From positions 1 through 29,639 of the IMG/VR virus record IMGVR_UViG_3300017991_001484: a stretch of DNA of 29,639 nucleotides; one strand, 5' to 3'. This stretch comes from a virus. Made by a program: the position numbers and the translations under genes. Positions 1,232-25,776 of this stretch are shown one piece after another. Position 1 is the first letter of the stretch; every line of letters starts with the position of its first letter. The notes under the pieces are model-generated. The model was not told where the DNA came from. It made no database searches and saw only the letters and a list, made by a program, of their open reading frames with translations.

Positions 1232-1877
1232 GACGGCAGAGCGCCTGCTCCTGCGCGCAGAGTCGGAATTCATCGCCGATCCACAGCGAAGGAGCCTCGA
1301 ATACTGGTACGAGCAGATCCTCGTCAAGGCCGTGCCAGTCGACACCGTGCGTAGGTACGCACTCGAGAATCACTGGTCAGAGCGACGACAGAGTTTCTGG
1401 CGGGGAGTCCAAGCGGCCTGGCTCAAGCAGAGGCACACGCAGCTTCTCCAGCAGCGCAGCACCGAGCTCCACCAGGCAACAGACTTGCGGGCCAAGGCGT
1501 ACGACCTCATCCGGCCCAAGATCGGACCGGACGGGGTCGAGAGGTTCCCGATCCAGCCCAAGAGCTGGGAGGGTGCAGTGCGGGCCTTCGTTAGTCTCGA
1601 TGACATGGTCGAGACGAAGCGCGAGGCCATCATGTCCCAGCTCGAGCCGATGTTGGCTGCGGCAGAGGAAGTTCGAGAAGAGGGGCCGGCAGAGCTGCCG
1701 TTCTCGCGCGAGGAGATGCGCGATATCGCCCACGGGCTATTGCGACAGCGCCGCAAGCGCCGCCGGCTCGAGATGGGCCTAGCTGATGAGGATGAGGAAG
1801 ATGACGAAGGCGACGAAAGCGAAAACGAAGGTGTCGGCGAACCCCTTGGTGATGTGGCTCGACCCCCAGGAGGTTGA
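1209..1877 (+). CDS. putative helix-turn-helix / small-terminase-like protein
   Basis: The 222-residue product starts at GTG 1209, overlapping the previous gene by 23 nt. Residues 25-60 (ADPQRRSLEYWY, then VPVDTVRRYALENHWSERR) look like the helix-turn-helix of phage small-terminase or packaging proteins, where a short recognition helix is followed by a W-x-x-R tail. The middle is a long helical region, and the C-terminus is very acidic (DEDEEDDEGDESENEG). Small terminases bind the packaging site and load the large subunit. Here the large terminase is about 8 kb downstream, which is unusual, so a transcriptional or replication role is equally possible. The 3' end overlaps the ParB-methyltransferase gene by up to 92 nt. 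Confidence 0.55.
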   Translation: MKRVRTNETAERLLLRAESEFIADPQRRSLEYWYEQILVKAVPVDTVRRYALENHWSERRQSFWRGVQAAWLKQRHTQLLQQRSTELHQATDLRAKAYDLIRPKIGPDGVERFPIQPKSWEGAVRAFVSLDDMVETKREAIMSQLEPMLAAAEEVREEGPAELPFSREEMRDIAHGLLRQRRKRRRLEMGLADEDEEDDEGDESENEGVGEPLGDVARPPGG

Positions 1878-9611: not shown

Positions 9612-10057
9612 TGATCCGCCTGGCTCTTCATTTTTTACTCGCCATTTTCGGCTCATCATCCGTATCGGGCCGCGCCACGGTCTACTGGCCGGGTGACGGC
9701 ATGTGCGGAACGCACCGCGCCGACGGTCGCCGCTTCCGCTCGACCGACGGCCACATCGCGCACAGGTGGATCCCTCTCGGAACGCCCGGGCTGCTCTGCT
9801 CGACGCGCACTGGTCGCTGCGTGCTCACCTACGTTGGTGATCGTGGTCCATTCGGACAGATCCGCCCTTGTTCCGAGACCACCAAGGGGCGCAAGATCCG
9901 GTGGCGCAGGCGCTGCTACCGCTGGCGAGGGCTCACCAGGCTCGTGCGGGGGTGGGAGTGGCGCGGCGCGTTTGACCTCACGCGCCGGGTAGCTCGATCC
10001 ATCGGGCACAGGCCATTTGATCAAGTGGTGTTTTTCTACGCGCGATTGCGGCGGTGA
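9611..10057 (+). CDS. secreted RlpA-like double-psi beta-barrel protein, 148 aa
   Basis: ATG 9611 gives an N-terminal signal peptide (MIRLALHFLLAIFGSSSVSG). The rest matches an RlpA-like double-psi beta barrel: ATVYWPGDGMCG, IAHRWIPLGT (His conserved), VLTYVGDRGPFG (Asp77, the RlpA active-site Asp), then GAFDLTRRVARSIGH. RlpA enzymes cut peptidoglycan glycan strands that have lost their peptide stems. The glutamate expected in the SSGExY-type segment appears to be Arg here (RADGRRFR), so activity is uncertain and an expansin-like, non-lytic role is possible. No SPOR domain is present. Several Cys residues may form disulfides outside the cytoplasm. It overlaps the terminase start. Confidence 0.78.
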   Translation: MIRLALHFLLAIFGSSSVSGRATVYWPGDGMCGTHRADGRRFRSTDGHIAHRWIPLGTPGLLCSTRTGRCVLTYVGDRGPFGQIRPCSETTKGRKIRWRRRCYRWRGLTRLVRGWEWRGAFDLTRRVARSIGHRPFDQVVFFYARLRR

Positions 10058-11889
10058 CAGATGAACGAACACCATTCGTAGCGAAACGCCCCCGCGCGCT
10101 AGTCCGCGTCGACAACCCACCTCGAACACCGGTCATAGACGGTGTGCTGGCCCGCCCGCTCACCGAGCTCGTCCAGCTCACGGATGCCACGGATCGCGAA
10201 GTGAAGGTGAGCCTCAAGCTCAACGAGATCTCCCCCGAGGACGAGCCGATCTGGAGCCAGGCGCAGGGCTACCTCTACAGGTCGAGCCTCGCCTACTTTT
10301 TTTCGGAGGTGATCCAGGGGCCAAACGAACACCCCTACAACGGACGTTCCCTCGTCGGAAAGCACCACGAGGAGTGGGATCGACTCGTCTGCAAGTACGA
10401 TCGCATCCTAATTCTCGCTGCCCGTGACCATGGGAAAAGCCACGCGTTTTCTCTCGCATATCCAATCTGGATGGGCGGCTACGTCAAGCCCGGAAGCCTG
10501 GGCTACATCTTCTCGTCGACGCAGGACACCGCCGATGCACTGCTCGCGATCGTCAAAAACGAGCTGCTGACAAACCCCAAGCTCGCGCACTTGGTGCCGA
10601 GCACGGGCGATCGGTTGTGGTCAAAAAAGGAGATCAAGCTCCGCAACGGCACCATCATCCGAGCGCGCGGGATGGGGGTCAAGGTCCGCGGCGGGCACCC
10701 CGACTGGATCGTCGTAGACGACTGCCTCACCGACGAGGACATCTACTCGGAGACGATCCGAAAGCGGAACATCGACTACTTCCTCTCTGCCATCACGAAC
10801 ATGATCAAGCCCGGCGGGCAGATCATCGTGGTTGGCACGCCGATGCACTTTGGCGATTTGTACGGCCACATCGAGCAGACCGGCGCATACGTGGTGCGGA
10901 AGTATCCGGCGATCAGCAAGACCGGGTTGATCCTGTTCCCCGAGCGCTACGACAAGTCTCGGCTCGAGAAGAGAAAGCTGGAACTGGCGTCTCCGGCGCG
11001 GTTCGCGCGCGAGTTCCTTTGCCAGCCGCTCACGGACGAGTCGAGCCTGTTTCCCAGCCACCTGTTCGAGGGCGGCGATGTGCGCCTCCCGTACACGTTG
11101 GGGCTTCCGGCTGCTTACTGGGAGGAGAAGGGTTGGCCGCGCTACACGGGCATCGACTTCGGCATGTCCGCGAGCGCTGGCGCCGACTACACGGTGATCT
11201 TCACCGTGGCCGTCGACGACCAAGGGAACCGATGGTTGGTCAACATCCGCCGCGGAAAGGGGTGGGGATTCCAGCGCCAGATCGACGAAATCAAAGAGGA
11301 ATACGCTCAGAGCCTGCCGGATTCGATCCACGCGGAATCCAACCAGGCCCAGCGCATCTTCACCGAGGAAGTGGTCCGCGAAACAGATCTGCCCATCCGC
11401 AAGTTCCACACTTCTGGAGTGCAGCCACGGCAGCCCTGGCGCAAGGGCATGACGTCGTTGACGATGGGCAAGCACTCCATCGACCGCGGCGTTCCGTCGC
11501 TGCGCATGACGCTCGAGAACCGCAAGTGGAGGATCCCTCGCGGTGACGCCGAGAGCATCGAAAAGACAGACGTTTGGATTGGCGAGATGATGGCGATGGG
11601 TTGGATCAACGGACAGGTCGGATCGGTAGGCGACCATGATGACACCGTGATGGCGTGCTGGATGTGCGATACAGCGGTGCGGATGGGTGGGTTTTCGTTT
11701 TCCTTTGGGGATGACACCGATTCGATGGCGCCCGTGGAACATATTGCGCTTCCCCAGAACAATCAGTATCTTGACGGACAACCCCCGACAGAACAGGAGG
11801 CCGAACCAGACCCGATGCCGCGAGAAGGAGCACCGAGTCCGGATGATATGGGCTTCGGGTTCGGCGGAGGTGGTGGCTTTGGATTTTGA
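10054..11889 (+). CDS. terL: large terminase subunit (TerL), 611 aa
   Basis: This is the DNA-packaging motor. The ATPase half has ARDHGKS (Arg124-Ser129, Walker A, Lys128), DWIVVDDCLTDED (Walker B) and VVGTPMHFGD (coupling motif). The C-terminal RNase H-like nuclease has IDFGMSASAGADYT (Asp368), HAESNQAQRIF (acidic residue) and GDHDDTVMACWM (Asp pair). The length is slightly above the usual 450-600 because of a Pro/Gly-rich tail (FGFGGGGGFGF). GTG 10054 is the start, in a GTGA overlap with the RlpA-like gene. The expected partner small subunit is not adjacent; the gene at 1209 is a candidate. A long inverted repeat follows directly. Confidence 0.95.
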   Translation: MTDERTPFVAKRPRALVRVDNPPRTPVIDGVLARPLTELVQLTDATDREVKVSLKLNEISPEDEPIWSQAQGYLYRSSLAYFFSEVIQGPNEHPYNGRSLVGKHHEEWDRLVCKYDRILILAARDHGKSHAFSLAYPIWMGGYVKPGSLGYIFSSTQDTADALLAIVKNELLTNPKLAHLVPSTGDRLWSKKEIKLRNGTIIRARGMGVKVRGGHPDWIVVDDCLTDEDIYSETIRKRNIDYFLSAITNMIKPGGQIIVVGTPMHFGDLYGHIEQTGAYVVRKYPAISKTGLILFPERYDKSRLEKRKLELASPARFAREFLCQPLTDESSLFPSHLFEGGDVRLPYTLGLPAAYWEEKGWPRYTGIDFGMSASAGADYTVIFTVAVDDQGNRWLVNIRRGKGWGFQRQIDEIKEEYAQSLPDSIHAESNQAQRIFTEEVVRETDLPIRKFHTSGVQPRQPWRKGMTSLTMGKHSIDRGVPSLRMTLENRKWRIPRGDAESIEKTDVWIGEMMAMGWINGQVGSVGDHDDTVMACWMCDTAVRMGGFSFSFGDDTDSMAPVEHIALPQNNQYLDGQPPTEQEAEPDPMPREGAPSPDDMGFGFGGGGGFGF

Positions 11890-11995: not shown

Positions 11996-14900
11996 ATGTT
12001 TGGATCTCATCCATCAGGTGGCCCCTTCGGCGCGATCCCCGGCCTTGCACCGCGCCTGATTCATCGCCTTCGCCAACAGCCAAGGATCGATACCTCGGCG
12101 TTTTCTCGGCTCACGCAGATGCCGGAGGTCACGAGCCCGCTGCAGCCCGTCGGGAGCATCCCCGCCGGCGTCGCCAGCCCCGTCATTGATCTGCCCATCC
12201 GACACGCCGAGCAGGTGGCCGCCGGCCTGGGGCTGACGTACGAGGCCGAGCGAGACCTGACCGAGCAGGTGCGAGAGTGGATGCAGGCCCCCGATCCGAT
12301 CACGCTTCGTCGGTCGCTATTCAAGGGGCTGCGTAGCTTCGCCCCCCGCGACCACCCACGCCGCAACGAAATCGCCAAGCGTGTGCTGTCGCTTTGGAAG
12401 GCGTCCGCGCGCACTTCTCCGATCCATCGCGATCCGCGACACGTGATTGTGCAGAAGTCCGAGAAGGCTCACCCCGGCATGTGGACGGAGGCCGAACTGC
12501 TCAAGTACAGGATGATGCACGAGGTGGCCGTGGAGCCGCCCCTTGAGCTGCGTCGCCGGATGCGGCTGACGATCGGCGTGCCGCGGCCCCCCGAGCTCGT
12601 CTGGATGACACGCGAGCTGGACGAGCTCGGCGACCAGGTGGACGACACGCCGCCCGGGTGGCGAGAGCCGGAGATGTCGAAGCCCGGACGACTGGTGGTC
12701 AAGGCCGCCGGCCACAAGTACATCAAGCGCACGCGCCGGCCGAACCCCCCGCCCAAATATCGCTACTACTACCGCCAGCCAAAGGGCAAGGGCCTGACGA
12801 GCTCGGAGGATCTGCACCAGGGGGCCAAGTTCAAGGTCGCCCACCGCGGCCAAGAGGGCCACTTCGAGGTCGTCAAGCACCACAAGAAGAAGGGGGTGGT
12901 CGAGGTCAAGCATGACGAGTCCGGACAGACCGCATTCGTCAAAGAGCGTGATCTGCACCGGATGATCGCGTCCTACCACGCAAAGAAAACCGCCAAGGCC
13001 ACGGGCAAACCAGCGCCGAAGGCGCCCGCCAAGCTCAGAACCGCCACGATGTCCGACCTCCAGAACGGGGAGTACGACAACGTGGAGGGGTTCGGCGAGG
13101 TGTCTGCGCTCGAGTTCCAGGCTGCTGGGATGCCCAAGGACCGCGACTACGCCATCATCGCCCAGCCCGGCGGGCACATCCTGGTCAGCAAGCGCAAGCG
13201 CGAAAAGGGCAAGCGTCGAGAGATCAAGGGCGAGAAAACCGACCTCAAGCTGCGCAGTTCGAGCGGCAAGGGGGTGGAGAACCTGGCAGCCGAGTTCGTC
13301 CTGGTCGAAGCCAGCGACCTGGTGGCGAGCCACCAGCCGAAGGCGCTCGGCAACTTTCCCGTGCACCCGCGCTACCCGGAGAACGTCCAGGAGCGCCGCT
13401 ACCACGCGATCTCGGCCGAGCAGGAGAAGGTCGACCGGATCGCCAAGAACCTCGACCCGGCCATCCTGGTCAACACGAACCCAGACGCTGTCAACGGCGC
13501 GCCGATCATGGACCAGCACAACGCGATCCTGGGCGGAAACGGGCGGACGATGGCGATCCAGATGGCCTACGCGCAGTACCCCGAGAGCGCGCAGCGGATG
13601 AAGGACTACCTCGTCGCCAACGCTCGCAAGTACGGGTTTGCCGCCGCGGACGTGCGCGCGATGGAGCAGCCGGCGCTGGTGCGGCGCGTCCAGGTCGAAG
13701 CCGGCAAGGGCAACGCGAACCTCAAGATGCTCGGTCGCCGGATGAACGAGGCCCTCACCCAGGGGCTCGACCCCCGCTCGGAGGAGGTGGCTGTCAGCCA
13801 GTTCGTGACGGAGAACGTCTGCCAAAGCCTCGTGGACACCATCGACCCGGGCCAGACCTTGGCCGACTTTCTCCACAGCTCGGCCGCCGAGGGCTTCGTG
13901 GTGTCCCTGCGCCAGGCGGGCATCATCGACGAGCTCAACAAGGCGCAGTATCTCGAGCACGACAAGGACGGCAAAGCGGTCAACCGCCTGAATGAGGACG
14001 GTCGAAACCGCGTCGAGCGCGTGATGGCCGCCAGGCTGATCCCTGATGCCGACCTCCTGCAGCGGATGAACCCCGAGCTGCGGCGGGTGCTGGCCCTGTC
14101 GACGCCGTCTCTGATCGTCGCCGAGCAGCACGGCTGGCCCGTGGGCCCATCGCTCAAGACCGCGGTCGAGGCGGATCTGCACATCCGCGAGCGGTACCAG
14201 GGCCAGCGGTCCGACGCCGCGCTGCGAAACTTTCTCGGCCAGACCGAGGCGACCGAGACCGGCGTCGACGTGGCCCAGCGCGTCCACGACGATCCCGTGG
14301 CCCTGGCCCTGCTCCAGGTGATCCGCGGCAAAATCGGGCCCAAGATGACGCCCCGAGACTTTCGCGGGTTCGCCGCCAGGGCGGTCCAGGACTACCACGA
14401 CCACGCGTTCTCGGAGGGGCGCTCCGGTGCCACCGGCACCCTGCTGGGCTTCGCCAGCTCGCGGATGACCCCCGCCGAGGCCCTCGACATCGAGTTCGGG
14501 CTGAGCCCGGCCGCCGCGGCCAAGAAGCGCCAGCGGATCCAGGACGAAAAGGACCGCGCCGCGGCCGAGAAGCGCGCCGAGGCGGAACGCAAGCGCTTGG
14601 CCAAACTGCAGTCCGAGGACCAGAGCCAGTTGTTCGCCGCCAGCGAGTACAACCAGAAGCCCGATCTGGTCAAGGCGATGGACGGCCAGAACCGCTTGAT
14701 GAACCGGGTGGTCTGGCACACGCAGTACCTGGTCGATGCAGCGGTGGCCAACAGCACGTCGACGAGCTCGAGCCGAAAGCCCAGGATCAACGCGTCCAAG
14801 ATCGTCGCCCAGGTGATGGATGACGTGCGTTCCGCGGCCAAGAAGGATTCATCCTACGCTCGAGACCTTGGCGCCCAGCCGATCACCGAGGCGACGGTTC

Positions 14901-15070
14901 GTGGGCTGATCGAGAGCATGACGGCGATGACCTCGTTGGATGTGGCTGTGGCCAAGTCTGTGCCGACAGGAGATCTCCGCAAGGCAGAGATCGAGCTCCC
15001 ACCGCCGCCACCTCCGCCCAAGCGACAGGTGCCCCGGCGTCGCGGCAAGCTGGCACGGATCGGAAAATGA
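11996..15070 (+). CDS. DdrB-like ParB-superfamily polyvalent protein, 1024 aa
   Basis: The start is ATG 11996 with AGGAGG 8 nt upstream. The N-terminal 200 residues are helical and unassigned. Residues 236-262 hold a basic, aromatic patch (KYIKRTRRPNPPPKYRYYYR). Residues about 450-560 match the DdrB-type ParB-like domain of phage and plasmid polyvalent proteins: HPRYPENVQERR (457-468), KNLDPAILVNTNPDAVNGAP, and GNGRTMAIQMAY (514-525). The following region (LVRRVQVEAGKGNANLKM, then helices to about 830) continues as in DdrB proteins. The C-terminus is charged and Pro-rich. P1 DdrB belongs to the defence-against-restriction set and is a virion protein. A DNA-protection role is inferred. The stop overlaps the DarB-like gene (ATGA). 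Confidence 0.8.
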   Translation: MFGSHPSGGPFGAIPGLAPRLIHRLRQQPRIDTSAFSRLTQMPEVTSPLQPVGSIPAGVASPVIDLPIRHAEQVAAGLGLTYEAERDLTEQVREWMQAPDPITLRRSLFKGLRSFAPRDHPRRNEIAKRVLSLWKASARTSPIHRDPRHVIVQKSEKAHPGMWTEAELLKYRMMHEVAVEPPLELRRRMRLTIGVPRPPELVWMTRELDELGDQVDDTPPGWREPEMSKPGRLVVKAAGHKYIKRTRRPNPPPKYRYYYRQPKGKGLTSSEDLHQGAKFKVAHRGQEGHFEVVKHHKKKGVVEVKHDESGQTAFVKERDLHRMIASYHAKKTAKATGKPAPKAPAKLRTATMSDLQNGEYDNVEGFGEVSALEFQAAGMPKDRDYAIIAQPGGHILVSKRKREKGKRREIKGEKTDLKLRSSSGKGVENLAAEFVLVEASDLVASHQPKALGNFPVHPRYPENVQERRYHAISAEQEKVDRIAKNLDPAILVNTNPDAVNGAPIMDQHNAILGGNGRTMAIQMAYAQYPESAQRMKDYLVANARKYGFAAADVRAMEQPALVRRVQVEAGKGNANLKMLGRRMNEALTQGLDPRSEEVAVSQFVTENVCQSLVDTIDPGQTLADFLHSSAAEGFVVSLRQAGIIDELNKAQYLEHDKDGKAVNRLNEDGRNRVERVMAARLIPDADLLQRMNPELRRVLALSTPSLIVAEQHGWPVGPSLKTAVEADLHIRERYQGQRSDAALRNFLGQTEATETGVDVAQRVHDDPVALALLQVIRGKIGPKMTPRDFRGFAARAVQDYHDHAFSEGRSGATGTLLGFASSRMTPAEALDIEFGLSPAAAAKKRQRIQDEKDRAAAEKRAEAERKRLAKLQSEDQSQLFAASEYNQKPDLVKAMDGQNRLMNRVVWHTQYLVDAAVANSTSTSSSRKPRINASKIVAQVMDDVRSAAKKDSSYARDLGAQPITEATVRGLIESMTAMTSLDVAVAKSVPTGDLRKAEIELPPPPPPPKRQVPRRRGKLARIGK
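12701..12781 (+). repeat. divergent basic-aromatic tag in the DdrB-like protein
   Basis: Residues 236-262 of the DdrB-like protein (AGHKYIKRTRRPNPPPKYRY, then YYRQP) share the order of a basic patch, Gly/Pro turn and Tyr-rich end with the YWYP modules of neighbouring proteins. They lack the PIPxGxKGG part, so homology is uncertain. Confidence 0.3.
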
Positions 15071-18000
15071 CGATGAGGCTTGTGCTCGATCTCGAGAAGG
15101 CTCGGAAGCCAGATCCACGGCAGATGGGGATGTTCGGTCCGCGACAGATGGGTGTGTTTGACAGCAGAAAGCCTCCGGGCAGCGGTTGGCAACCCATCCC
15201 GCGCGGGACGAAGGGTGGTTTCCGCCGTCGCAAGGGACATGGCTGGGAGTACTGGTATCCCGAGACCGCCAAGCCCCAGGCTGACGGTCTCCCCACAGAA
15301 TCCGAGCTGTGGGAAACGACCAGGGATGCCGCGGCTGGAACCCCGCCAGAGACCAAGACTCCGGGGACCAACATCACCTGGAGCAGTCTTTCTGGGTGGC
15401 TGGATGGATACGCTGAGATCGGCGCAAGAAGGCACAACAGTAAGCGGTATGACGATGAACTCTCGCACGTCACCCAGGACATCAGCCACGTGGTGACTGC
15501 CACCACCGACGCTGATGAACTTCAGTTGGCGTTCAACGTCATGCGGAAGCGCTCTCGTGACCTGCGCATGTATCCCGAGAAGCAGGCCCCCGTGGTGGCC
15601 AACATCAACGCGATCAACCGTCGAATGACGCAGCTCGGAATCAAGCCGGAGAAGAAGCCAAGAGGGATCGACCCGATGGAGGAGGCAATCCAGGCCAAGG
15701 AGGCGCGGCGGGTCAATTTGCAGACCGCCTGGAAGGCGTTCAACCGCGCCGTGAAAAATGGCCCCTGGATGTTTCTTTCCAGCGGCGCAGGCCGGGCCGA
15801 GTACGGATCAATCGATGGCAGGCGCAAACTACAGATCGAGACACACGGAGACACGATCACGTTCAGTGGCGTGATGGCAGGGACGTACCCCCGTCTCGAG
15901 GGAATAAAGCTCGCGACCGAAATGATCGAGTCGGAGCGGCATCGCGCCGAGTGGCGGGGTCACAAAGTCGGTGACCGCGTGAGATTTCGGGCCACCACGC
16001 CTCATGGCTGGGAGGATCAAGAGGGAGAGATCCGCGACATCACCTACAAGCAAGGGACAATCTCGTTTTTGATCAAGCCGGACAAGGGACCCGCGAGACG
16101 CGTTGAGAGGTTTGACGTGCACAAGAGCAGGCGTCTCGTGCTGTTCAGCGGGCAGGATCTGCTCAAGGCGCGCCGCGCCGCCGATCCGCGCCAGATGGGG
16201 CTTTTCGGTGGCGGCGCCCCGCGTCCACCCGGTGCGGGGTGGCAGCACATCCCCGGTGGGCGCCATGGTGGCTTCCGCCGGCGCAAGGGAAAGGGGTGGG
16301 AGTACTGGTACCCGGACAAGCAGAAGGTCCAGGTGAAGCCCCACGTCGAGGACGTCGAGCCCAGGCCCAAGCTGGTGATCGGCGGCGCCGACACCCGCAA
16401 GGACGCCGTCACTGACGCGATGACCGAGGTCAAGACCAAGGGCAAACGCAAGAGCGACAACGAGCTGGCCCTCGAGATCGTCCAGCGTGCCCTGTCGGCG
16501 GGGCGCGGCCTGACGGACGAGGAGGCGATCCAGGTCGCAAAGTACAGCGGGAAGGGCGGGATCAGCGGAGACCTCAACCAGTATTACACGCGCACCGACG
16601 TCGCAGATGCGATGTGGGACGTGATGGGCGCCTATCTGCCGGAGCACGAGCGCGTGCTCGAGCCGAGCTGCGGCAGCGGCGTGTTCCTCCAGACCGCCCC
16701 CAAGGGCACCAAGGTGACGGGCGTCGAGCTCGACAGCAGCGCTGCCATGGTCGCCGACGTGCTCCACGGCCACAAGCACGAGGTTCACGCCCAGGCGCTC
16801 GAGGAGTTTACGATCGAGCGCTACGGCCAACGCCAAGACTTCGACGGCGTGATCGCCAACCCGCCGTACTGCGTGCGGACAGGCGACATCCCTCTCGATA
16901 AGCCCGAGTTCAAGAGCGCTGACAAGTACTTCATCGACACGTCCCTTGATCACGTGAAGGACGGCGGCGTGTGCGTGTTTCTGATCCACCCCGGCGTGAT
17001 GAGCAACCGTGGCCAGAACTGGCGGGAATTCCGCGAGCGCCTCCTGGCGCGCGCCGAGGTGTTGGACGGCTTCAAGCTGCCAGATGACTGTTTCAAGCAC
17101 GTCCACTGCGAAATCGCGGCCGACATCATGGTGCTCCGCAAGCGCGATCGGATCGTCGGTGAAGCCCTCCTTCAGGCCCAGGCCGACGGTAGGCTTGCCG
17201 AGGAGATGGGCCAGCTTGGCGCCTGGGATCAACAGTGGGTCGACGGCACCTACTTCGACACCCGCCCCGAGCGGATCCTCGGAGAGGCCAAGACCCGCGA
17301 GGAGACCGGGTTCCGCGATACCGTGGTCGGTGACGTGGCGCAGGTTCCCGGGGCGCTTCGTCGCCTGACCGCCGAGAAGGTGGCCGCGGAGACCGAGCCC
17401 TCCGCCATGCCGATCAGCGTCGAGCAGCTCGCCGAGCTCGGAAAAGAGCGCGAGCACATGGCCGAGTACCTTCGCCGGGCCGAGTCGAAGATCGCTGCGG
17501 CTGACGTTCCGCCGCTGCTCGGCAACGTCAAGACCATGGCCAACCGCAAGTACCTCTACATCGGCGAGCCGCCCAAGTGGGTGCCGATGGAGACGGTCGA
17601 CGACGTGAGCCAGATCATCAACAACAGCGGCGACCAGGCGATCAAGCAGGCCCACGATCTGGCCCAGGCCATCGGCGATTTGATGAAGGCTCGCCAGGAG
17701 GGCGAGTTCTACAAGGCGCGGGCGATGCGTCGCGACGTGGCGACCAGGGTCAAAGCGTGGGTCCAGGAGAACGGAATCCCGGGCTCCCACCGCGCCCTCG
17801 GAGAGCTGTCCAGAAGCGCCCCACTTCTCCTGGACTTCATGGCATGCGTCGACTCGAACGGCGAGCTGTCGGACGTGCTGAGCAAGGATGCGGCAGTGAC
17901 GCTCAAGGCCGCCGACGTCGACCGGACCGATCTCGCAAGCGTGGCCGCCTATGTAGCGCGGAGAAACCGTGGCTACGTACTACCGTCCGATCTCCAGCAC

Positions 18001-21000
18001 AACTGGGAAGGGTGGGACGGTCAGAGCGAGGACGAACTCCGGCGCCTGGTCCTTGCGACCGGCGACTACGCGCTAGACGCGTCCGCGCGCGAGAGCGAAT
18101 CAGGCGCCACACCGCTCCAGCACATGGAGGACTACCTCACGGGTAACCTCTACGACAAGCTGGAGGCCGAGCGCGCGCGCCTCGAGACCATCGGCGGCGA
18201 GGAGCGTGCCCAGGTGCAGCGCCAGATCGCGGCCATCGAGGAGCGGCTAGAGACGAAGCGCAGAAGCATCGACGACATTCCGATCCAACTCCGTGTGATG
18301 GGGTGGTTTCCGCTCGAGTGGTTCAGTGACTTTCTGAACAGCACCGAGGGGCGCCACATCGTATTTGGCCGCGGTCCGCGAAAGCACGGCGAGAACATGG
18401 CTCGCATGATCTACGAGGACGGCGTCTACACGCTGCAGGAGATCGTGCCACCCGAGGGGAAGCCGGCGAGCTACGGCAGAGAGTTCACCCCTGGGGAGGT
18501 TCTCGGGGAGAGCAGCGGCGGGGGTCGAGCGCCCCATTTCCTGAAGTACATGAACCGCTTCGGTTTAAAGAAAGAGGACGTCAAGAGCGTCGAGGAGGAC
18601 GTCGAGCGCGCGTTCGGTGACTGGCTCAAGACCTCCGAGCATCGCACCGACCTCGAGAACCTCTACAACCGCCTGTTCAACTCGGAGTTCCGCAAGGAGT
18701 ACAGCGGGGATGCGCTCGGGCTCGAGGGGATCACCGAGGGGATCGTTCCGCACGACTACCAAAACATGGCCGTGCGGTGGGCCGCAGAGACGGGGCGCGG
18801 CATCCTGGGGCAGGACGTGGGCCTTGGCAAGACCTTCATCGCGATCCTTCTCGCTCGACTGCGAAAGCAGCAGGGCCGCGCCAAGCGGCCCATGGTGGTC
18901 GTGCCGAAGTCGGTCGCTACCAACTGGGCTGAGGAGGTCGAGTCCCTGTTCCCGGGATCGCGTGTGCTCGTGATCGGCGAGCACCGCGTCAAGGGTCGTG
19001 CCGCGGTGAAGCAAGCGAAGGCGGAAGCGGTAGAGCGCGGGCTCGAGGGTGAGGCGTTTGACGCCTACGTCGAGGCCAACAGCTACGTCACCAAGGCCGA
19101 CAACGACATCGAGCGCAACCGAAAGCTCGCGATGGTCAAGCAGAACGAGTACGACCTGATCATTTGCACCAAGCCCGCGTTTGACCGGATCCCTCTCAAG
19201 CAGGAGACGATCGAGCAGTACGAAAAGGAGGATTTTTGGTACCAGCGCGCGGGCAAGGTGGACGAGATCCGTGAGGGGTCAAAGACACAGCAGACCCAGG
19301 ACAAGCGGATCGAAAAGCTCAAGGCTCAGTGGGCGCAGGACAAACTGCAGCAGAAGTTCAAGCACGATGAGAGCCTCGTGTTCTGGGAGGATCTCGGCAT
19401 CGACACGCTGATGGCCGACGAGGCGCACGCGTACAAGAACCTCTATGCAGCCAAGTCGCGGTTCGGATCCAACCCGAAGTTTCTGGGCGGCAGTGGGCAA
19501 AGCAAGCAGGCTCGCAAGATGCAGCACATGTCCCACTACGTTCGCGAGTCGGATCCGAATAACGGCGTCTACCTGTTGACGGCGACGCCGACAAAGAACT
19601 CACCGCTGGAGGTATTCAACATGCTCCAGCACATCGCCCCCGAGGCGTTTCACAAGATCGGAATCGAGAACTCCGAGGACTTCATTGACCGGTTTTGCCA
19701 GCTCGAGGAACGGCTTATCCTGACCCCCCCGGGGAAGCATGCCAAGAAAAAGGACGAGGACGAAGGGGAGACGCAGTTTTCCGACGAGTATGAGGGAGCC
19801 GGGAACCTCGAGTCGGCGCAGTGTGTCGTTGGTTTCACCAACCTCAAGGAGCTGGAGCAGATCATGGACCGGTACATGATGCTGCAGACAGCGACGGACG
19901 TCGGGCTGAAGATCCCCGACGCCGAGCACCAGACGCACCTCGTGGACATGACCAGCGAGCAAAAGGTGGTCTACGAGCTGCTGCGACAAAACGCCCTCAA
20001 CCTCGATAACCATGAAGATCCTGGGGGCATGTTCCGGCTCCTTGACCAGATGAAAAAGGCCGCTCAGGACCTCGAGTTATACGATTCAGAAGAGTACAAG
20101 AACTGGTACACGAATAGCCCGAAGTACAAGGCGTGCGTCGAGGCTGCTGCGAGAGGGGCCAAAGAGCGCGGGGGGCAGATCATCTTCTGCGACCACAACG
20201 CCAGCCATGAGCGGCTCAAGAACATGCTCATCGAGCAGGGACTCAAGCCCTCCGAGATCGGCATCATCAACGCCCAGGTGGCCGCCGACTCCGCCGCGCG
20301 GCAGGCCATCGGCAATCGGTTCAACCGCGGAGAGGTCAAGGTCGTGATCGGAAACACCGGCACGATGGGGGAGGGCGTCAACCTCCAGGGCAAAAAGCAC
20401 GCCGCGGGGACCACGGACATCCACCACCTCGACCAGCCGTGGGATCCGGGGACCATGCACCAGCGCAACGGCCGCGGTGTGCGCCAGGGCAACAACGCCG
20501 AGCAGGTGCAGATCCACACGTACCTAGCCAAGGGCTCGTTTGACGGTTTTCGACACTCCACCCTCAAGGGGAAGGAGCGCTGGCTAGATAAACTGCGTAG
20601 CGGCGCCGACAACATCTCGAACGACATGGAGGGGCAGGGCCTCGACGACGTGGAAATGCTAGCGATGCTGTCAGACAACCCCGACGAGGCGCTACGCGTG
20701 ATCAAGGAGAAGCGGGCAACGGCCGAGAGCGCTTGGTACGCCAAGCAGGCCCAGCAGTCTATCGACGACTTCTACAACTACCAGCGAAAGGTGGAGCGTC
20801 TCGGCAAGATCCGCGGCCAGGATAAAGCGCGAGCTCGCATGACAATTAGCGTCGATCGACTCAGGAGACAGTTGCTGCGCAATGAGCTGCTCCCGCTCGA
20901 GATCAAGCAGTACCTCGAGTCAGCCGATAGGACGCCGGTCGCCGTCAACACCTACCTCACAGGAGAAGGGGACGACACGCGGCTGGCTGCGCGGCTGATC

Positions 21001-21636
21001 AAGCGCGGGGTGGTGATCGAGCCAAAGGAGCCGCAGTTGCGGAAGTCGGGCCGGCTGTTGGTCGAACGGGTGGACCTGGCCAAGCGGACGATCCGCGTCC
21101 GGTCGTGGGGCAGCTCTCGCAGCTACGAGCGCGAGATCGACCAGGTGGCGGGAGACGGTTACCAGGTCAGCGACTACAAGCCCGCTGACGAGCTCAAGGA
21201 GGCGCTGCGGGACAACCTCGATAACTCCTGGAAGTCGCCCCTGGAGGCCATCACCCACATTCCAGAGTACGTGCTCGCGGCCAACCAGAGCATGATCGAC
21301 GAGCACATCCACGCCTGGTACGAGAAGCACGGAAAGCTCGGAACGCCGATGATCGTTCGCACCGAAACGGGTTCGGTGTTCTCGAAGCCCCTGGCCGAGA
21401 TTGGCCAGGGGGAGATCCTCTACCCATGGGGCGAGGACAAGGCCGCACTGATTGAAGCTGTGGCGGAGGCGAACACATCCCACGATCAATGGCGCGAGTG
21501 GAACAACCCGCTGCTCGAGACGGCGCGACGGGAGTATGGCTACTCGAGTTACGGCTACGGAGCCACAAGTCCGTTCAACAAGCTCGCCAAAGAAGCCGAG
21601 GAGCGCTGGAAGGCGTCGCACGGGGTTGCACAATGA
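15067..21636 (+). CDS. DarB-like N6-adenine methyltransferase / SNF2 helicase, 2189 aa
   Basis: Domain order: residues 16-31, two adjacent PRQMG(M/V)F boxes; 36-65, first YWYP tag; 66-370, unassigned; 373-380, a third box (DPRQMGLF); 387-416, second tag. Residues about 490-720 are a DNA methyltransferase with VLEPSCGSG (530-538) and NPPY (598-601). A helical linker follows. Residues about 1225-1850 are an SNF2-type helicase with GQDVGLGKT (Lys1255), DEAH (1451-1454), TATP (1505-1508) and QRNGRGVRQGN (1799-1809). A C-terminal 340-residue region is unassigned. Architecture and length match P1 DarB (about 2250 residues), a head-packaged, co-injected protein that shields DNA from type I restriction. 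Anti-restriction function is inferred by analogy. ATGA overlaps couple it to both neighbours. Confidence 0.88.
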   Translation: MTMRLVLDLEKARKPDPRQMGMFGPRQMGVFDSRKPPGSGWQPIPRGTKGGFRRRKGHGWEYWYPETAKPQADGLPTESELWETTRDAAAGTPPETKTPGTNITWSSLSGWLDGYAEIGARRHNSKRYDDELSHVTQDISHVVTATTDADELQLAFNVMRKRSRDLRMYPEKQAPVVANINAINRRMTQLGIKPEKKPRGIDPMEEAIQAKEARRVNLQTAWKAFNRAVKNGPWMFLSSGAGRAEYGSIDGRRKLQIETHGDTITFSGVMAGTYPRLEGIKLATEMIESERHRAEWRGHKVGDRVRFRATTPHGWEDQEGEIRDITYKQGTISFLIKPDKGPARRVERFDVHKSRRLVLFSGQDLLKARRAADPRQMGLFGGGAPRPPGAGWQHIPGGRHGGFRRRKGKGWEYWYPDKQKVQVKPHVEDVEPRPKLVIGGADTRKDAVTDAMTEVKTKGKRKSDNELALEIVQRALSAGRGLTDEEAIQVAKYSGKGGISGDLNQYYTRTDVADAMWDVMGAYLPEHERVLEPSCGSGVFLQTAPKGTKVTGVELDSSAAMVADVLHGHKHEVHAQALEEFTIERYGQRQDFDGVIANPPYCVRTGDIPLDKPEFKSADKYFIDTSLDHVKDGGVCVFLIHPGVMSNRGQNWREFRERLLARAEVLDGFKLPDDCFKHVHCEIAADIMVLRKRDRIVGEALLQAQADGRLAEEMGQLGAWDQQWVDGTYFDTRPERILGEAKTREETGFRDTVVGDVAQVPGALRRLTAEKVAAETEPSAMPISVEQLAELGKEREHMAEYLRRAESKIAAADVPPLLGNVKTMANRKYLYIGEPPKWVPMETVDDVSQIINNSGDQAIKQAHDLAQAIGDLMKARQEGEFYKARAMRRDVATRVKAWVQENGIPGSHRALGELSRSAPLLLDFMACVDSNGELSDVLSKDAAVTLKAADVDRTDLASVAAYVARRNRGYVLPSDLQHNWEGWDGQSEDELRRLVLATGDYALDASARESESGATPLQHMEDYLTGNLYDKLEAERARLETIGGEERAQVQRQIAAIEERLETKRRSIDDIPIQLRVMGWFPLEWFSDFLNSTEGRHIVFGRGPRKHGENMARMIYEDGVYTLQEIVPPEGKPASYGREFTPGEVLGESSGGGRAPHFLKYMNRFGLKKEDVKSVEEDVERAFGDWLKTSEHRTDLENLYNRLFNSEFRKEYSGDALGLEGITEGIVPHDYQNMAVRWAAETGRGILGQDVGLGKTFIAILLARLRKQQGRAKRPMVVVPKSVATNWAEEVESLFPGSRVLVIGEHRVKGRAAVKQAKAEAVERGLEGEAFDAYVEANSYVTKADNDIERNRKLAMVKQNEYDLIICTKPAFDRIPLKQETIEQYEKEDFWYQRAGKVDEIREGSKTQQTQDKRIEKLKAQWAQDKLQQKFKHDESLVFWEDLGIDTLMADEAHAYKNLYAAKSRFGSNPKFLGGSGQSKQARKMQHMSHYVRESDPNNGVYLLTATPTKNSPLEVFNMLQHIAPEAFHKIGIENSEDFIDRFCQLEERLILTPPGKHAKKKDEDEGETQFSDEYEGAGNLESAQCVVGFTNLKELEQIMDRYMMLQTATDVGLKIPDAEHQTHLVDMTSEQKVVYELLRQNALNLDNHEDPGGMFRLLDQMKKAAQDLELYDSEEYKNWYTNSPKYKACVEAAARGAKERGGQIIFCDHNASHERLKNMLIEQGLKPSEIGIINAQVAADSAARQAIGNRFNRGEVKVVIGNTGTMGEGVNLQGKKHAAGTTDIHHLDQPWDPGTMHQRNGRGVRQGNNAEQVQIHTYLAKGSFDGFRHSTLKGKERWLDKLRSGADNISNDMEGQGLDDVEMLAMLSDNPDEALRVIKEKRATAESAWYAKQAQQSIDDFYNYQRKVERLGKIRGQDKARARMTISVDRLRRQLLRNELLPLEIKQYLESADRTPVAVNTYLTGEGDDTRLAARLIKRGVVIEPKEPQLRKSGRLLVERVDLAKRTIRVRSWGSSRSYEREIDQVAGDGYQVSDYKPADELKEALRDNLDNSWKSPLEAITHIPEYVLAANQSMIDEHIHAWYEKHGKLGTPMIVRTETGSVFSKPLAEIGQGEILYPWGEDKAALIEAVAEANTSHDQWREWNNPLLETARREYGYSSYGYGATSPFNKLAKEAEERWKASHGVAQ
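15112..15159 (+). repeat. tandem PRQMG(M/V)F boxes, copies 1 and 2
   Basis: DPRQMGMF and GPRQMGVF are adjacent (24 nt each), just upstream of the first YWYP tag. The preceding residues are LEKARKP; the same (L/I)xKA(R/K) context precedes the other copies. Confidence 0.8.
15172..15261 (+). repeat. YWYP tag, copy 1
   Basis: Thirty residues (36-65 of the DarB-like protein): PPGSGWQPIPRGTKGG, FRRRKGHG, WEYWYP. It is near-identical to copy 2 and related to copies 3-6 in other proteins. Confidence 0.85.
16183..16206 (+). repeat. DPRQMGLF box, copy 3
   Basis: Residues 373-380 of the DarB-like protein, preceded by LLKARRAA and followed after six residues by YWYP tag copy 2. Confidence 0.8.
16225..16314 (+). 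repeat. YWYP tag, copy 2
   Basis: Residues 387-416 of the DarB-like protein: PPGAGWQHIPGGRHGG, FRRRKGKG, WEYWYP. It lies directly before the methyltransferase domain. Confidence 0.85.
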
Positions 21637-21951: not shown

Positions 21952-24900
21952 ATGCCAGCTTCTGCGGTCAGAACAGAGCGAGATGAGCACCTTTGGTCCG
22001 AGGCCAAGAAACAGGCCAAGAAGCAGGGGCGCACCGAGGATTGGAAGTACGTGATGGGCATCTACCAGCGGATGAAGGGCGTAAGCAAGGCCGAGGCCAT
22101 CCCCGGCGGTCTGGCCGCGGGAAAGAAGCCTGGCGACTTTGACGCCGAGGCGCTGGCCGCTGGCACGAAGGTCGAACTCGAGCATACCCGGGATCGCAAG
22201 GTTGCGCAGGAGATCGCGATGGACCACCTCACCGAGGACAAGGACTACTACCGCAAGCTGGCTCGGATGGAGGCCCACAAGTCCCTGACGCCGGAACTGG
22301 ACGAATGGATCGAGAAAGCCAAGGACGATCCGCGGCAGATGGGTCTGTTCGCTCCCCCGCCGCCGAGATCTGGTGGCGGCAAGCAGCAGCGGCCCCCGGC
22401 CGGGTACCAGCCGGTCAGGGGGTCCAAAAAGGGCGGCTACTTCAAGATGGTCGGCGGGAAACGCGTCTACTGGTACCCGGACAAAGGCGAAACCCACAGG
22501 GCAACGCCAGTTGCTCCTGCTCCTGCCCCTGCCCCTGCCCCTGCCCCCGAGCCGAAGCCGCTAACGGCAGACGAACACAAGTTTCGCGGAGCGGTGATTC
22601 TCTCGGAGTTTGACAAAAGGTCATCGTCTGGTGCCAGTTGGAATTCAATACGCCCACTCAAGGATTTGGCCGATGATCACTTCAGAACGGCCAAAGAGCT
22701 TGCGTCCAGCGATCCGTCAGAAGTTGGTGTAGCGCAAGAGTTCAGCGTTGCTCTTCAGCAGCGCGAACCATCCATACTGAAGGAACAGGCATTCGATATC
22801 GACGCAGACACGGTGGACCCGTCCGATGAGGAGTTGCTCGCCGCAGATGGCCTCCACCGGTCTATCGACGCCATCCACGATCTCGTGAAGGGCGCCAACC
22901 AGAAGCCCCCGGCCGGGTTCACCCCGATCAAGGGCAGCACCAAGGGCGGCTACCACATGAAGCGTGGGGCCGGCTACATCTACTGGTACCCCGGTGTGGG
23001 CGTCACGAACGCGCCGCACGCCAAGGACAAGGGCAAGGACACCAAGCCGAACGAGGCCAAGGGCAAGGAGGGTGGCGAGGCACCGGCCAGGGAGGTGATC
23101 ACCGATCCCGCCGAGCTCCCGGCCGATTTCAACAAGCTCGACAAGAAGCAGCGTGCTGTGATGACCGCCGACTACGACGTCGTGCAAAAGGAGATGGAGG
23201 ACCGCTTTGGAGCTCCCCGGTCCTACAAGGGCGACCTCAAGGCGGCCATCGGCGAGCACCTCGACGATCTGGGGAACCAGGGCTACATCATCCCCAAAAA
23301 CGTCGAGCGTGCGAAGAAGATGCTGCACTCCATGGTCGACTACGGCGATGCGGCGGGCGTCGACAAGGCCCAGCTGTCCAAGCTAATGGAGGAGAACGTT
23401 CGCAAGCTGGCACATCAGGAGATCGAAGCGGCCGGACGCACCCTCGGCGACCACGGCGTGCGTCACCTGAGCGTCAACGCCCAGCAGTCGGACGCCATCT
23501 TCGAGCAGCTCAAGAAGGGCGGCAAGGACATCAGCCCGATGGACCACTTCATGGCCTACCAGGTGTGGCTGGACCACGACATGGGCTACACGATTCCGGC
23601 CATCGCCCGCGGCGGATTCGCCGTCAAGGACAACTACCACCCGCAGGCGAGCACGGTCATGTCCTTGCAGCAGAAGGACAAAATGACTCAGATCTTCGGC
23701 GAGGACAAGTTCACGCGCTACGTCCAGGCCGTGGCGAACCACAGCGGCAGCGAGGTGGACTGGAGCAAGGACCACTTCGGGAGCGCGGTGCGATTGGCCG
23801 ACAACACCCACCTCTTCGCGGACAAGATGCCCGAGGTGCTGTTCGACAGCAAAGAGGCCGTCGAGACGCTGGTCAAGATCCGCATCGCCCAGGATCACGT
23901 CGCCGGGAGTGCCGAGGGCGGAAAGCGCACACCGGAGGAGAAGGCCAAGGTCAAGGCGCTGATCGGTGGCGTCAAGGCTCAGCTCACCAAGGCCATCGAG
24001 GCACGCGACGATCTCCCACCGGAGAGCAAGCACGCGCTCGTCAAGGCCGCGCGCGAGATCGGCGAGCTCACTCCCAAGTTCCTGATCGGTCGCCTCGCCG
24101 GCCGGAATCCGCAGTTTGATTTCGATGGCAAGGAGATGAAGGTCAAGATCGAGCAGTCCGATGCCCGCGAGACGATCGGTCGCGTGTTTGGCGAGGACGA
24201 TGCCGACAAGCAGTTCACGAAGCTGCTCGAGGACTACGGCGTGACGCCGGAAAAGGCGCTGGGCAAGAAGCCTCCGCCTCCAGGAGCGCACATCGGCGAC
24301 GAGGGCAACGGGATCGAGTTCTCCTGGCAGCCGCCGACCAATGAACATCACGTTGAGCGCCGGCACGCCGACGTGATGAAGGCTGCCAAGGACGAGTGGG
24401 ACGAGATCCAGAGCATGTCGGAGGGAAAGGAGCGCGAGAGCGCGATCAACAGGTTCTTCGGCGTCGAGGTGGCCAAGGCATTTGCACAACTGCTGATGAC
24501 CCAAGATCTCGACGAGTGGCTGGAAAAAAGCGTCCACGCCGCGGCAGCCGGTGGCAGCGCGATGGCGGCGCTGGCCCGGAGAACGGGCAACGTGCGCCCC
24601 AGCCCTTACCAGCCCCTCCCCGACAAGAAGCCGACCGCCAAGCCTGGCCTCGGGACCCGGATCGCGGCGAAGCTGTGGGGCGACCAGATGGCGTCCAGGC
24701 CGAGCGGCAGCGGCTGGTCTCCGGTTCCCGGAGGTGCCAAGGGCGGTTTTCGTCGCCGCGGGCGAGACGGAAAGTGGGTCTACTGGTACCCTGGCATGAA
24801 GGCCGGAGGCAGCAAGGAGGAGGCCGACAAGCACGTCGCGCACAAGCAATGGAAAGCGCACTGGAAGGAAAGCGACCGGTGGCGCGAGCGGGCAGCGAAA

Positions 24901-25776
24901 CGGTCGGGCGAGGAGCAGAAGCGCGCGAGGCAGCAGATGCACCACCACGCGGACGCGGCGAACGCGCTGGCCGAGAAGCACGGGTTCAGAAAGAGCGAGG
25001 AGAAAGACATGGTGAAAAGCAAGTCTGGCGGCCCCTACATCGGCCCGCGCGGCGGCAAGTACGCCGATCCGCAGCACAAGAGGTCGTGGAGGGAAGAAGC
25101 TGAGCATCACGTGAGGCAGAAAGAGCACCACGAGAAGGAGAAGGAGAAGCTCGGCGGGCTTTCTTTGACGCTGCGGAAGCTCAGTCCCGAGGAGAGAGAA
25201 AAGCAGGACAAGATCCAGGCCCACATGGATGCAATCAACGAGCACCATCGCGCGGCCGTGGCCCACTTGAACGCTGGCTGGGGTACTGGCACTTCCGAGG
25301 AGGCGCGCGCGGCATCGACAAACGCCGAGGAGGCGTCAAGGAAAACCAGAGGCAAGTACGCCGAGAAGTCCCTCCGCAAGGCTCGCATCGGCATCGGCGA
25401 GTGCTACGCCGAGCTCGACGAGGACGAGGCCATCGCCAAGTCCATCGAGTCCGGCGAGCTGCAGCTCGGCGTACAGGCCCGTTACGCCGGATCGGCGCCG
25501 GCCGAGGTGCTTCGCAAGGGAACCATCTACCAGGGCGAGCAGTCCGACCGACCGTGCCCCCCCGAGGACATGCAGCGCCAGCACATCGCGGCGCAGATCG
25601 TCGAGAACGATCCGGCCGGTTTCGAGGGCCAGGGCGGGCTGGCAGCCTGGTGGCAGGATGCCCACGGCGTCGAGAGCGGAGCTCCGCTGGTCGTCAAGAG
25701 CGACCCGGGCGAGACAAAGGTGATCGACGACAGCGACCCCATGGTGCGGAGCGCGTTCACCAAGCGCGACTACTAG
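21952..25776 (+). CDS. polyvalent protein: DUF5661-like, HD hydrolase-like core and three YWYP tags, 1274 aa
   Basis: Domain order: residues 9-43, a helical segment (EHLWSEAKKQAKKQGR, WKYVMGIYQRMKG); 50-108, DUF5661-like (KVELEHT, IAMDHL, DYYRKL); 126-133, DPRQMGLF; 148-176, tag 3; an Ala-Pro linker; 319-347, tag 4. Residues about 495-640 form an HD-phosphohydrolase-like set: HGVRH (501-505), DHDMGY (His542-Asp543), YHP (His563), NHSG (His597) and LADN (Asp617), the usual ligand order for a metal-dependent phosphodiesterase or phosphatase. Tag 5 is at 916-947, and GGPYIGPRGGKYADPQH at 1026-1042. The remainder is helical. HD enzymes hydrolyse nucleotides or cyclic-nucleotide signals, so a counter-defence role after injection is conceivable. 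No substrate can be named. Confidence 0.78.
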   Translation: MPASAVRTERDEHLWSEAKKQAKKQGRTEDWKYVMGIYQRMKGVSKAEAIPGGLAAGKKPGDFDAEALAAGTKVELEHTRDRKVAQEIAMDHLTEDKDYYRKLARMEAHKSLTPELDEWIEKAKDDPRQMGLFAPPPPRSGGGKQQRPPAGYQPVRGSKKGGYFKMVGGKRVYWYPDKGETHRATPVAPAPAPAPAPAPEPKPLTADEHKFRGAVILSEFDKRSSSGASWNSIRPLKDLADDHFRTAKELASSDPSEVGVAQEFSVALQQREPSILKEQAFDIDADTVDPSDEELLAADGLHRSIDAIHDLVKGANQKPPAGFTPIKGSTKGGYHMKRGAGYIYWYPGVGVTNAPHAKDKGKDTKPNEAKGKEGGEAPAREVITDPAELPADFNKLDKKQRAVMTADYDVVQKEMEDRFGAPRSYKGDLKAAIGEHLDDLGNQGYIIPKNVERAKKMLHSMVDYGDAAGVDKAQLSKLMEENVRKLAHQEIEAAGRTLGDHGVRHLSVNAQQSDAIFEQLKKGGKDISPMDHFMAYQVWLDHDMGYTIPAIARGGFAVKDNYHPQASTVMSLQQKDKMTQIFGEDKFTRYVQAVANHSGSEVDWSKDHFGSAVRLADNTHLFADKMPEVLFDSKEAVETLVKIRIAQDHVAGSAEGGKRTPEEKAKVKALIGGVKAQLTKAIEARDDLPPESKHALVKAAREIGELTPKFLIGRLAGRNPQFDFDGKEMKVKIEQSDARETIGRVFGEDDADKQFTKLLEDYGVTPEKALGKKPPPPGAHIGDEGNGIEFSWQPPTNEHHVERRHADVMKAAKDEWDEIQSMSEGKERESAINRFFGVEVAKAFAQLLMTQDLDEWLEKSVHAAAAGGSAMAALARRTGNVRPSPYQPLPDKKPTAKPGLGTRIAAKLWGDQMASRPSGSGWSPVPGGAKGGFRRRGRDGKWVYWYPGMKAGGSKEEADKHVAHKQWKAHWKESDRWRERAAKRSGEEQKRARQQMHHHADAANALAEKHGFRKSEEKDMVKSKSGGPYIGPRGGKYADPQHKRSWREEAEHHVRQKEHHEKEKEKLGGLSLTLRKLSPEEREKQDKIQAHMDAINEHHRAAVAHLNAGWGTGTSEEARAASTNAEEASRKTRGKYAEKSLRKARIGIGECYAELDEDEAIAKSIESGELQLGVQARYAGSAPAEVLRKGTIYQGEQSDRPCPPEDMQRQHIAAQIVENDPAGFEGQGGLAAWWQDAHGVESGAPLVVKSDPGETKVIDDSDPMVRSAFTKRDY
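22327..22350 (+). repeat. DPRQMGLF box, copy 4
   Basis: Preceded by WIEKAKD and followed by a Pro-rich spacer and YWYP tag copy 3. It is identical at residue level to copy 3, in a different gene. Confidence 0.8.
22393..22479 (+). repeat. YWYP tag, copy 3
   Basis: PPAGYQPVRGSKKGGYFKMV then GGKRVYWYP: the same frame as copies 1-2, with the Arg run replaced by FKMVGGKR. Confidence 0.75.
22906..22992 (+). repeat. YWYP tag, copy 4
   Basis: PPAGFTPIKGSTKGGYHMKR then GAGYIYWYP, about 140 residues after copy 3 and just before the unassigned region leading to the HD core. Confidence 0.75.
24697..24792 (+). repeat. YWYP tag, copy 5
   Basis: RPSGSGWSPVPGGAKGGFRR then RGRDGKWVYWYP. It resembles copies 1-2 of the DarB-like protein more than copies 3-4 of its own protein. 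Confidence 0.8.
25027..25077 (+). repeat. GGPYIGPRGGK motif, copy 1
   Basis: GGPYIGPRGGKYADPQH in the HD protein; 16 of 17 residues match the copy in the MuF fusion at 28986. It is preceded by VKSKS. Confidence 0.85.

Follow-up and report, generated by a model that had tools for sequence, protein, structure and literature searches.

The DNA analyzed here (the window) is a viral stretch of 29,639 nucleotides, IMGVR_UViG_3300017991_001484, positions 1 to 29,639, and all coordinates are on its plus strand. Between the genes for the terminase large subunit (TerL) and the portal protein lies a block of four genes, which encode a DdrB-like protein, a DarB-like N6-adenine methyltransferase (MTase) and SNF2 ATPase, a Ulx-like protein, and a fourth large protein (Table 1). 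Three kinds of short sequence element recur in the block, namely a candidate protease site (LxK[AS]), a QxxLF tag, and modules that we termed A, B, and C. A sequence-only reading had proposed that a DdrB-like and a DarB-like open reading frame (ORF) separate terL from portal by about 14 kb. Both ORFs are present, with a 4-base ATGA overlap, and the gap measures 13.9 kb, but the pair itself occupies only about 9.6 kb. The remainder of the gap consists of the Ulx-like gene and the 1274-aa fourth protein, neither of which had been named.

The Dar-type gene block

The assignment of the second ORF to DarB was borne out by several searches. In addition to the MTase profile match, the SNF2 profile is matched with an E value of 1.2e-19, and a comparison to PHROGs returned phrog_11801 (1.7e-261) and phrog_10089, annotated as DarB-like antirestriction (1.3e-92). 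The catalytic motifs PSCGSG, NPPY, GLGKT, DEAH, and QRNGRGVR are intact. P1 darB was found by tblastn at 29% identity over query residues 461-1905 (54% of the query), which covers the MTase-SNF2 core. The DdrB assignment is likewise upheld by a significant profile match. The ddrB-ParB domain scores 75.1 bits against a curated cut-off of 27.6, and tblastn from this protein reached P1 ddrB with 37% identity over aa 423-564. P1 DdrB has a C-terminal zincin metallopeptidase with an HExxH motif. This motif was sought in the window protein and not found, and because it is missing we refer to the protein as DdrB-like and not as a full P1-type DdrB.

The DarB-like gene is followed by the ulx-like gene, which is the arrangement of a P1-type DarB. 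The predicted Ulx-like protein can be aligned with Ulx of P1, D6, JK004, and Lalka27a, and ulx is also found directly 3' of darB in P1, D6, and the Thermus phage Lalka27a. In the Bordetella phage vB_BbrM_PHB04 (PHB04), an ORF alignable with Ulx directly follows the DarB gene. The Ulx-like gene makes the DdrB-DarB-Ulx set complete. In P1, the Dar proteins are components of the virion head that enter the cell with the DNA and shield it from type I restriction (PMC9024508, PMC12810830), in agreement with what the earlier reading had said of the P1 counterparts. The P1 head proteins include Ulx, DarB, and DdrB, of which Ulx and DdrB are described as aiding the entry of DarB into the capsid (PMC9024508).

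The same succession of genes, from terL through DdrB, DarB, Ulx, and the fourth protein to portal, was found in a diverged relative, IMGVR_UViG_3300031772_000164 (L070/L066; L-numbers are labels of compared contigs). The identities are 68% for TerL, 50-56% for the DdrB-like protein, 58-63% for the DarB-like protein, 65% for the Ulx-like protein, 51% for the fourth protein, and 60% for the portal. Other contigs of the group (L015, L041, L045) also have cargo genes between terL and portal. Downstream of the portal gene, a MuF-type minor head protein is fused to a polyvalent InPase domain; the MuF part was assigned by position and by eye, with a PF04233 match of only E 0.24. Large late-operon proteins of this portal-terminase phage combine polyvalent domains, as the polyvalent class of phage proteins does.

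Within the fourth protein, a helical region (23092-24489, aa 381-846) has conserved H/HD/H/H/D residues that, read by eye, hint at an HD-type phosphohydrolase. The AlphaFold model of this region is of low confidence (predicted local distance difference test (pLDDT) 51.5), and the region had no sequence match in the PDB and no match in Pfam.

LxK[AS] sites in head proteins and cargo

The pattern LxK[AS] was counted over genes from module-bearing contigs, and expected counts were obtained by within-protein shuffling. The scaffold of contig L008, whose repeated LxKS/LxKA prompted the idea, was left out of the three scaffolds counted. By PHROGs, the scaffolding protein of a relative (phrog_15087, 4e-8) is encoded beside a head maturation protease (phrog_1028, 1.5e-43) and a major head protein (phrog_752, 5e-85). 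The pattern was enriched 16-fold in scaffolds (19 observed, 1.2 expected), 9-fold in proteases (12 and 1.3), and 3-fold in cargo (131 and 43.3), with 26 against 5.3 in portals, 6 against 2.0 in capsid proteins, and 1 against 1.1 in TerL. The control patterns LxR[AS] and LxK[TNQDE] gave ratios near 1 in cargo and portal, and the small classes scatter. In an initial comparison, LxK[AS] was high in 'control' genes also, but once these were sorted by function, scaffold, protease, and portal genes accounted for much of it.

The sites are also distinctly placed. A single LxK[AS] occurs at aa 22-38 in 6/6 capsid proteins, most portals have a site in the N-tail and many have one in the C-tail, head proteases have the pattern around aa 163-170, beyond the catalytic part, and scaffolds contain 6-11 sites. 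None of 45 cargo sites fell within a Pfam domain (domains make up 11.8% of residues, p 0.003), and the InPase domain has [LIVM]xK[AS] on each flank in all four proteins that contain it. For the window itself, the relaxed pattern [LIVM]xK[AGS] was observed 15 times in the fourth protein (5.4 expected), 8 times in the DdrB-like protein (3.4), and 4 times in the MuF-InPase protein (1.4); the DarB-like protein, with 9 vs 6.5, is not significant as a whole. The DdrB-like orthologue retains four of the window sites, and other sites, inside folded regions, are lost. In the cultured phage PHB04, LxK[AS] was found 7 times in the scaffold (0.67 expected) and 5 times in the protease (0.64), at aa 34 of the capsid protein, and at aa 26 and 569 of the portal.

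This distribution is the pattern expected of a prohead-protease site, and the motif is common to scaffold, portal, protease, capsid protein, and cargo. Because the cargo has the candidate site in common with these head proteins, packaging of the cargo is supported. The cut would probably fall after the lysine, by analogy with HK97 gp4. If LxK[AS] merely reflected the composition or helical nature of linkers rich in lysine and alanine, with no protease site involved, the enrichment of E-x-A-K style helix patterns and an excess in unclassified genes (below) would be accounted for. However, such an effect would not predict unenriched LxR[AS] and LxK[TNQDE] in cargo, portal, and protease, the same N-terminal site in all six capsid proteins, the placement in portal tails, or the 6-11 scaffold sites, and we regard it as unlikely. 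Methyltransferase-helicase fusions are common among phages, and the DarB-like enzyme could also be an ordinary late methyltransferase that acts on newly made phage DNA, with the block not packaged at all. The block lies amid head genes, comprises the Dar set of genes, and has candidate processing sites in common with scaffold and portal, all of which argues against such an enzyme, and we consider this reading very unlikely.

Taken together, it is likely that the block encodes Dar-type head cargo that is injected, with the DarB-like enzyme protecting DNA in cis and the head protease cutting the cargo at LxK|[AS]. The DdrB-like, DarB-like, and Ulx-like proteins and the fourth protein would be expressed together with the head genes, enter the prohead, and be injected alongside the DNA. 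Inside the next cell, the DarB-like enzyme would translocate along and methylate the entering DNA in cis, and, as in P1, the DdrB-like and Ulx-like proteins may help it to be packaged or delivered. Besides clearing the scaffold, as it must, the head maturation protease would cleave the cargo linkers, so that one precursor would give rise to several separate injected enzymes. The best supported parts of this model are injected Dar-type cargo and protection in cis, from homology to P1 and the literature, together with the predicted cleavage at LxK|[AS], from the computational evidence. A site code common to scaffold, portal, protease, capsid, and cargo would bear on the way in which very large multi-enzyme cargo is sorted, processed, and used after injection, and it makes a definite prediction for a cultured phage such as PHB04.

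Several points weigh against this interpretation. The window is a fragment with the protease, scaffold, and capsid genes beyond its end, so these were taken from relatives. The likeness to P1 DdrB is limited to about a quarter of the DdrB-like protein, and both the DdrB-like and the Ulx-like assignments depend on partial-length matches. Between orthologues, site lysines were conserved in 13/20 cases vs 115/240 for other lysines, which is not significant (p 0.11). Unclassified genes of the same contigs are 2.7-fold enriched in LxK[AS] (40 vs 15); more head proteins may be hidden there, or there may be a general bias. Lastly, the P1 capsid protein is cut at E120|S121, after glutamate (PMC9024508), and the LxK[AS] code is therefore not that of P1.

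Repeated modules and a QxxLF tag

Modules A (KGGPYIGPRGGKWADxxHTIPW), B (PPxGWxPIPGGxKGGYRRRxxGWEYWYP), and C (KAAGHKYIKR...YRYYY) are repeated across unrelated proteins within one phage. The window contains five full copies of module B, and module C is retained in the DdrB-like protein of L070. An exact-pattern search of IMG/VR returned 33 stretches for module A and 10 for module B. Short-query tblastn of both A and B gave no hit in 50,697 records of cultured phages, while a similar-sized control, the P1 DarB N-terminus, worked. Among 84,980 species genomes, the module A pattern occurred in one, a Myxococcales metagenome-assembled genome. The contig concerned (CP070713.1, L051) is the sole bacterial genome contig with the exact pattern and, judging from portal and MuF-like genes in its vicinity, may be a prophage or a phage contig. 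AlphaFold models module B with moderate confidence (pLDDT 77.5) as a small three-strand beta mini-fold. Its best PDB matches are WW domains, but with an E value of 1.8 they are not significant and we do not claim this identity. The modules may serve as a handle for spotting injected cargo in unannotated phages.

In IMGVR_UViG_3300031772_000164, the N-terminus of the DarB-like protein contains an inserted ADP-ribosyltransferase (ART-PolyVal, 4.5e-14) that is flanked by LSKS and module B on one side and by LLKAEQLGLF and module B on the other. An insertion bracketed by such tags agrees with exchangeable cassettes.

The tag pattern Qx[SDGAE][LM]F occurs 20 times in module-bearing cargo, where 1.6 are expected (12-fold), and 5 times vs 0.4 in other proteins of at least 800 aa. 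It was found 0 times in the portal, TerL, and capsid proteins of module-bearing contigs, and single-residue controls (E, N, or R replacing Q; Y or W replacing F) were not enriched. Variants include QLDLF, QMGLF, QLGLF, and QTSLF. In 11/30 cases, the tag is located no more than 12 aa after an LxK[ASG] site, against a background of 8% (p 1e-5), and it lies outside Pfam domains in 12/12, which alone is not significant. At the start of many predicted pieces there would be a QxxLF tag followed by a small aromatic/glycine module, and these may serve to dock or sort the piece.

The canonical beta-clamp binding motif is Q-aliphatic-x-[L/M][F/L], with QLxLF as the best version (PMC11139829), and the tag fits this motif. 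Injected pieces could therefore bind the host beta-sliding-clamp (DnaN) and load onto replicating phage DNA, which is compatible with packaged and processed Dar-type cargo. The enrichment of the tag in cargo and its absence from portal, TerL, and capsid proteins, the flat controls, and its position after LxK[ASG] sites are consistent with such docking, as is its presence in head cargo of cultured phages, namely PHB04 DarB (QLALF, QGSLF), Lalka27a DarB (QPALF), P1 DdrB (QGDMF), and ABMM1 DdrB (QQGLF). However, the case is drawn purely from sequence, eight of the strict matches belong to the two contigs that gave rise to the idea (the window and L006), and the tag is also on proteins without an expected need for DNA. 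The tag was not found in P1 or D6 DarB, nor in the majority of the giant podovirus ejection proteins examined. We regard clamp docking as possible, at somewhat short of an even chance. Clamp binding by QxxLF would mean that effectors carried in the virion dock on the replication machinery of the host. It should be added that the Lalka27a DarB N-terminus (L054 14050-14349) has tandem QPALF, QPTLW, and QPTLW in a Pro-rich tail, resembling QMGMF/QMGVF of the window.

A more doubtful alternative, also compatible with Dar-type injected cargo, is that QxxLF, together with the preceding LxK[AS], directs cargo into the prohead as a capsid-targeting signal and is not a clamp motif. The tag is limited to predicted head cargo and is often N-terminal. 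For P1 DarB, the first 30 residues suffice for capsid targeting and truncations implicate residues 6-10, and no common signal was found among the P1 Dar N-termini (PMC9024508). Residues 6-10 of P1 DarB are MGVFR, and the DarB-like N-terminus of the window has RQMGVF. This identity was weighed and not relied on: it is a match of one tetrapeptide, which D6 DarB does not retain. In addition, many copies of the tag are internal or C-terminal, and the positional preferences track the clamp consensus. The binding partners of the tag and of the modules are less certain than the Dar-type character of the cargo. We offer only tentatively that this group of uncultured phages builds effectors as cassettes of prohead-protease site, clamp docking motif, aromatic/glycine module, and enzyme, in which the protease would free the pieces and each would dock on the host sliding clamp after injection. 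If so, virion-delivered enzymes would end up on the phage's own replicating DNA.

Elsewhere in the window, upstream of the packaging genes, a ParB_N domain is fused to an N6/N4 DNA methyltransferase (1786-3228, which includes QMLIF), and positions 3-728 match a RusA-like Holliday junction resolvase. In L032 (5103-9407), an InPase and a ddrB-ParB domain are joined in a single 1435-aa protein, and LxK sites lie in the stretch that separates the two.

Table 1. Coordinates of genes, domains, and short sequence elements in the window; a slash marks the predicted cut after the lysine of each candidate site.
Feature	Position	Strand	Evidence or remark
TerL, upstream border of cargo block	10054..11889	+	phrog_38 E 7.9e-56
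DdrB-like protein, 1024 aa	11996..15070	+	profile and tblastn matches; orthologue in IMGVR_UViG_3300031772_000164
Module C (VVKAAGHKYIKR...YRYYY) and next ~80 aa, DdrB-like protein	12695..12990	+	also at N-terminus of LPD1-SNF2 protein in L006
ddrB-ParB domain, aa 430-565	13283..13690	+	PF18763 E 6.6e-21; GNGRT at aa 514
Candidate site LVK/A, DdrB-like aa 891	14666..14677	+	kept in orthologue
Candidate site LRK/A, DdrB-like aa 994	14975..14986	+	LIKA in orthologue
DarB-like MTase and SNF2 ATPase, 2189 aa	15067..21636	+	profiles, tblastn
Candidate site LEK/A, DarB-like aa 9	15091..15102	+	
Tandem clamp-like motifs QMGMF and QMGVF, DarB-like N-terminus	15121..15159	+	
Module B copy 1 (PPGSGWQPIPRGTKGGFRRRKGHGWEYWYP)	15172..15261	+	
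Candidate site LLK/A, DarB-like aa 365	16159..16170	+	directly ahead of clamp-like motif and module B; VLKA in orthologue
Clamp-like motif QMGLF	16192..16206	+	ahead of MTase domain
Module B copy 2	16225..16314	+	
N6-adenine MTase domain, aa 505-694	16579..17148	+	PF02384 E 3e-11
SNF2/helicase region, aa 1219-1858	18721..20640	+	PF00176, PF00271, phrog_62
Ulx-like protein, 104 aa	21633..21947	+	ATG at 21633, ATGA overlap with DarB-like stop; phrog_1629 'Ulx-like anti-restriction' E 3.6e-9
Fourth large cargo protein, 1274 aa	21952..25776	+	DUF5661, three B modules, one A module; profile search, module search
Candidate site IEK/A, fourth protein	22309..22320	+	ahead of QMGLF and module B
Clamp-like motif QMGLF, fourth protein	22336..22350	+	
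Module B copy 3	22393..22479	+	
Module B copy 4	22906..22992	+	
Candidate site LEK/S, fourth protein aa 857	24520..24531	+	past HD-like region; kept in L008 and L066
Module B copy 5	24700..24792	+	
Candidate site MVK/S, fourth protein	25009..25020	+	ahead of module A
Module A (GPYIGPRGGKYADPQHKRSW), fourth protein	25030..25089	+	
Portal protein, downstream border	25787..27508	+	PF04860 E 1.1e-19
MuF-type minor head protein fused to InPase domain	28116..29639	+	runs past window end; InPase PF18823 E 6.1e-35
Candidate site LTK/A	28974..28985	+	between MuF part and module A
Module A (GPYIGPRGGKWADPQHTIPW)	28989..29048	+	after MuF part
Candidate site VAK/S	29139..29150	+	7 aa upstream of InPase domain
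Candidate site IEK/A	29565..29576	+	directly past InPase domain
Further module B, beginning only	29592..29639	+	cut by window end

Comparison with known systems

The closest cultured relative of the DarB-like protein is that of PHB04, at 35% identity over 66%. PHB04 resembles the window phage in the LxK[AS] pattern of its head proteins, in LLTKA-QLALF at the DarB N-terminus, where the candidate site is at aa 5, and in the Ulx-alignable ORF past DarB, but a short-query search of cultured phages found no A or B module in it. Between its portal and DarB-like genes (L053 10906-12179) are a (p)ppGpp synthetase/hydrolase and a protein phosphatase, which are possibly more cargo.

Like the P1 Dar system (DarA, Hdf, DdrA, DdrB, DarB, Ulx), the window has a DarB MTase-SNF2 protein followed directly by Ulx, a DdrB-type ParB protein, and linkage to head genes (P1 portal prt and pro adjoin darB). 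In contrast to P1, where ddrB is in a separate operon, ddrB adjoins darB in the window, the DdrB-like protein is without HExxH, the candidate protease site is another, and clamp-like tags and modules A-C are present. DarA, Hdf, and DdrA had no match among the cargo proteins scanned, the window being a fragment. The internal head proteins of T4 and SPN3US are likewise head cargo processed by the maturation protease, as the cargo of the window phage would be; here, however, many candidate sites lie between the enzymatic domains of very large proteins, and the consensus is LxK[AS].

In the polyvalent proteins described by Iyer et al. 2017 (PMC5512222), ddrB-ParB, N6-MTase-SNF2, and InPase domains are found in large late-operon proteins, as in the window, and relatives of the window phage have LPD1 and ART-PolyVal. 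Processing of polyvalent proteins was ascribed to fused zincin metallopeptidases (PMC5512222), whereas the candidate sites in the window match the prohead protease's own substrates and repeated modules punctuate the domains. The window block is a Dar-type set of the known polyvalent class, in which the punctuation by short tags is what is new.
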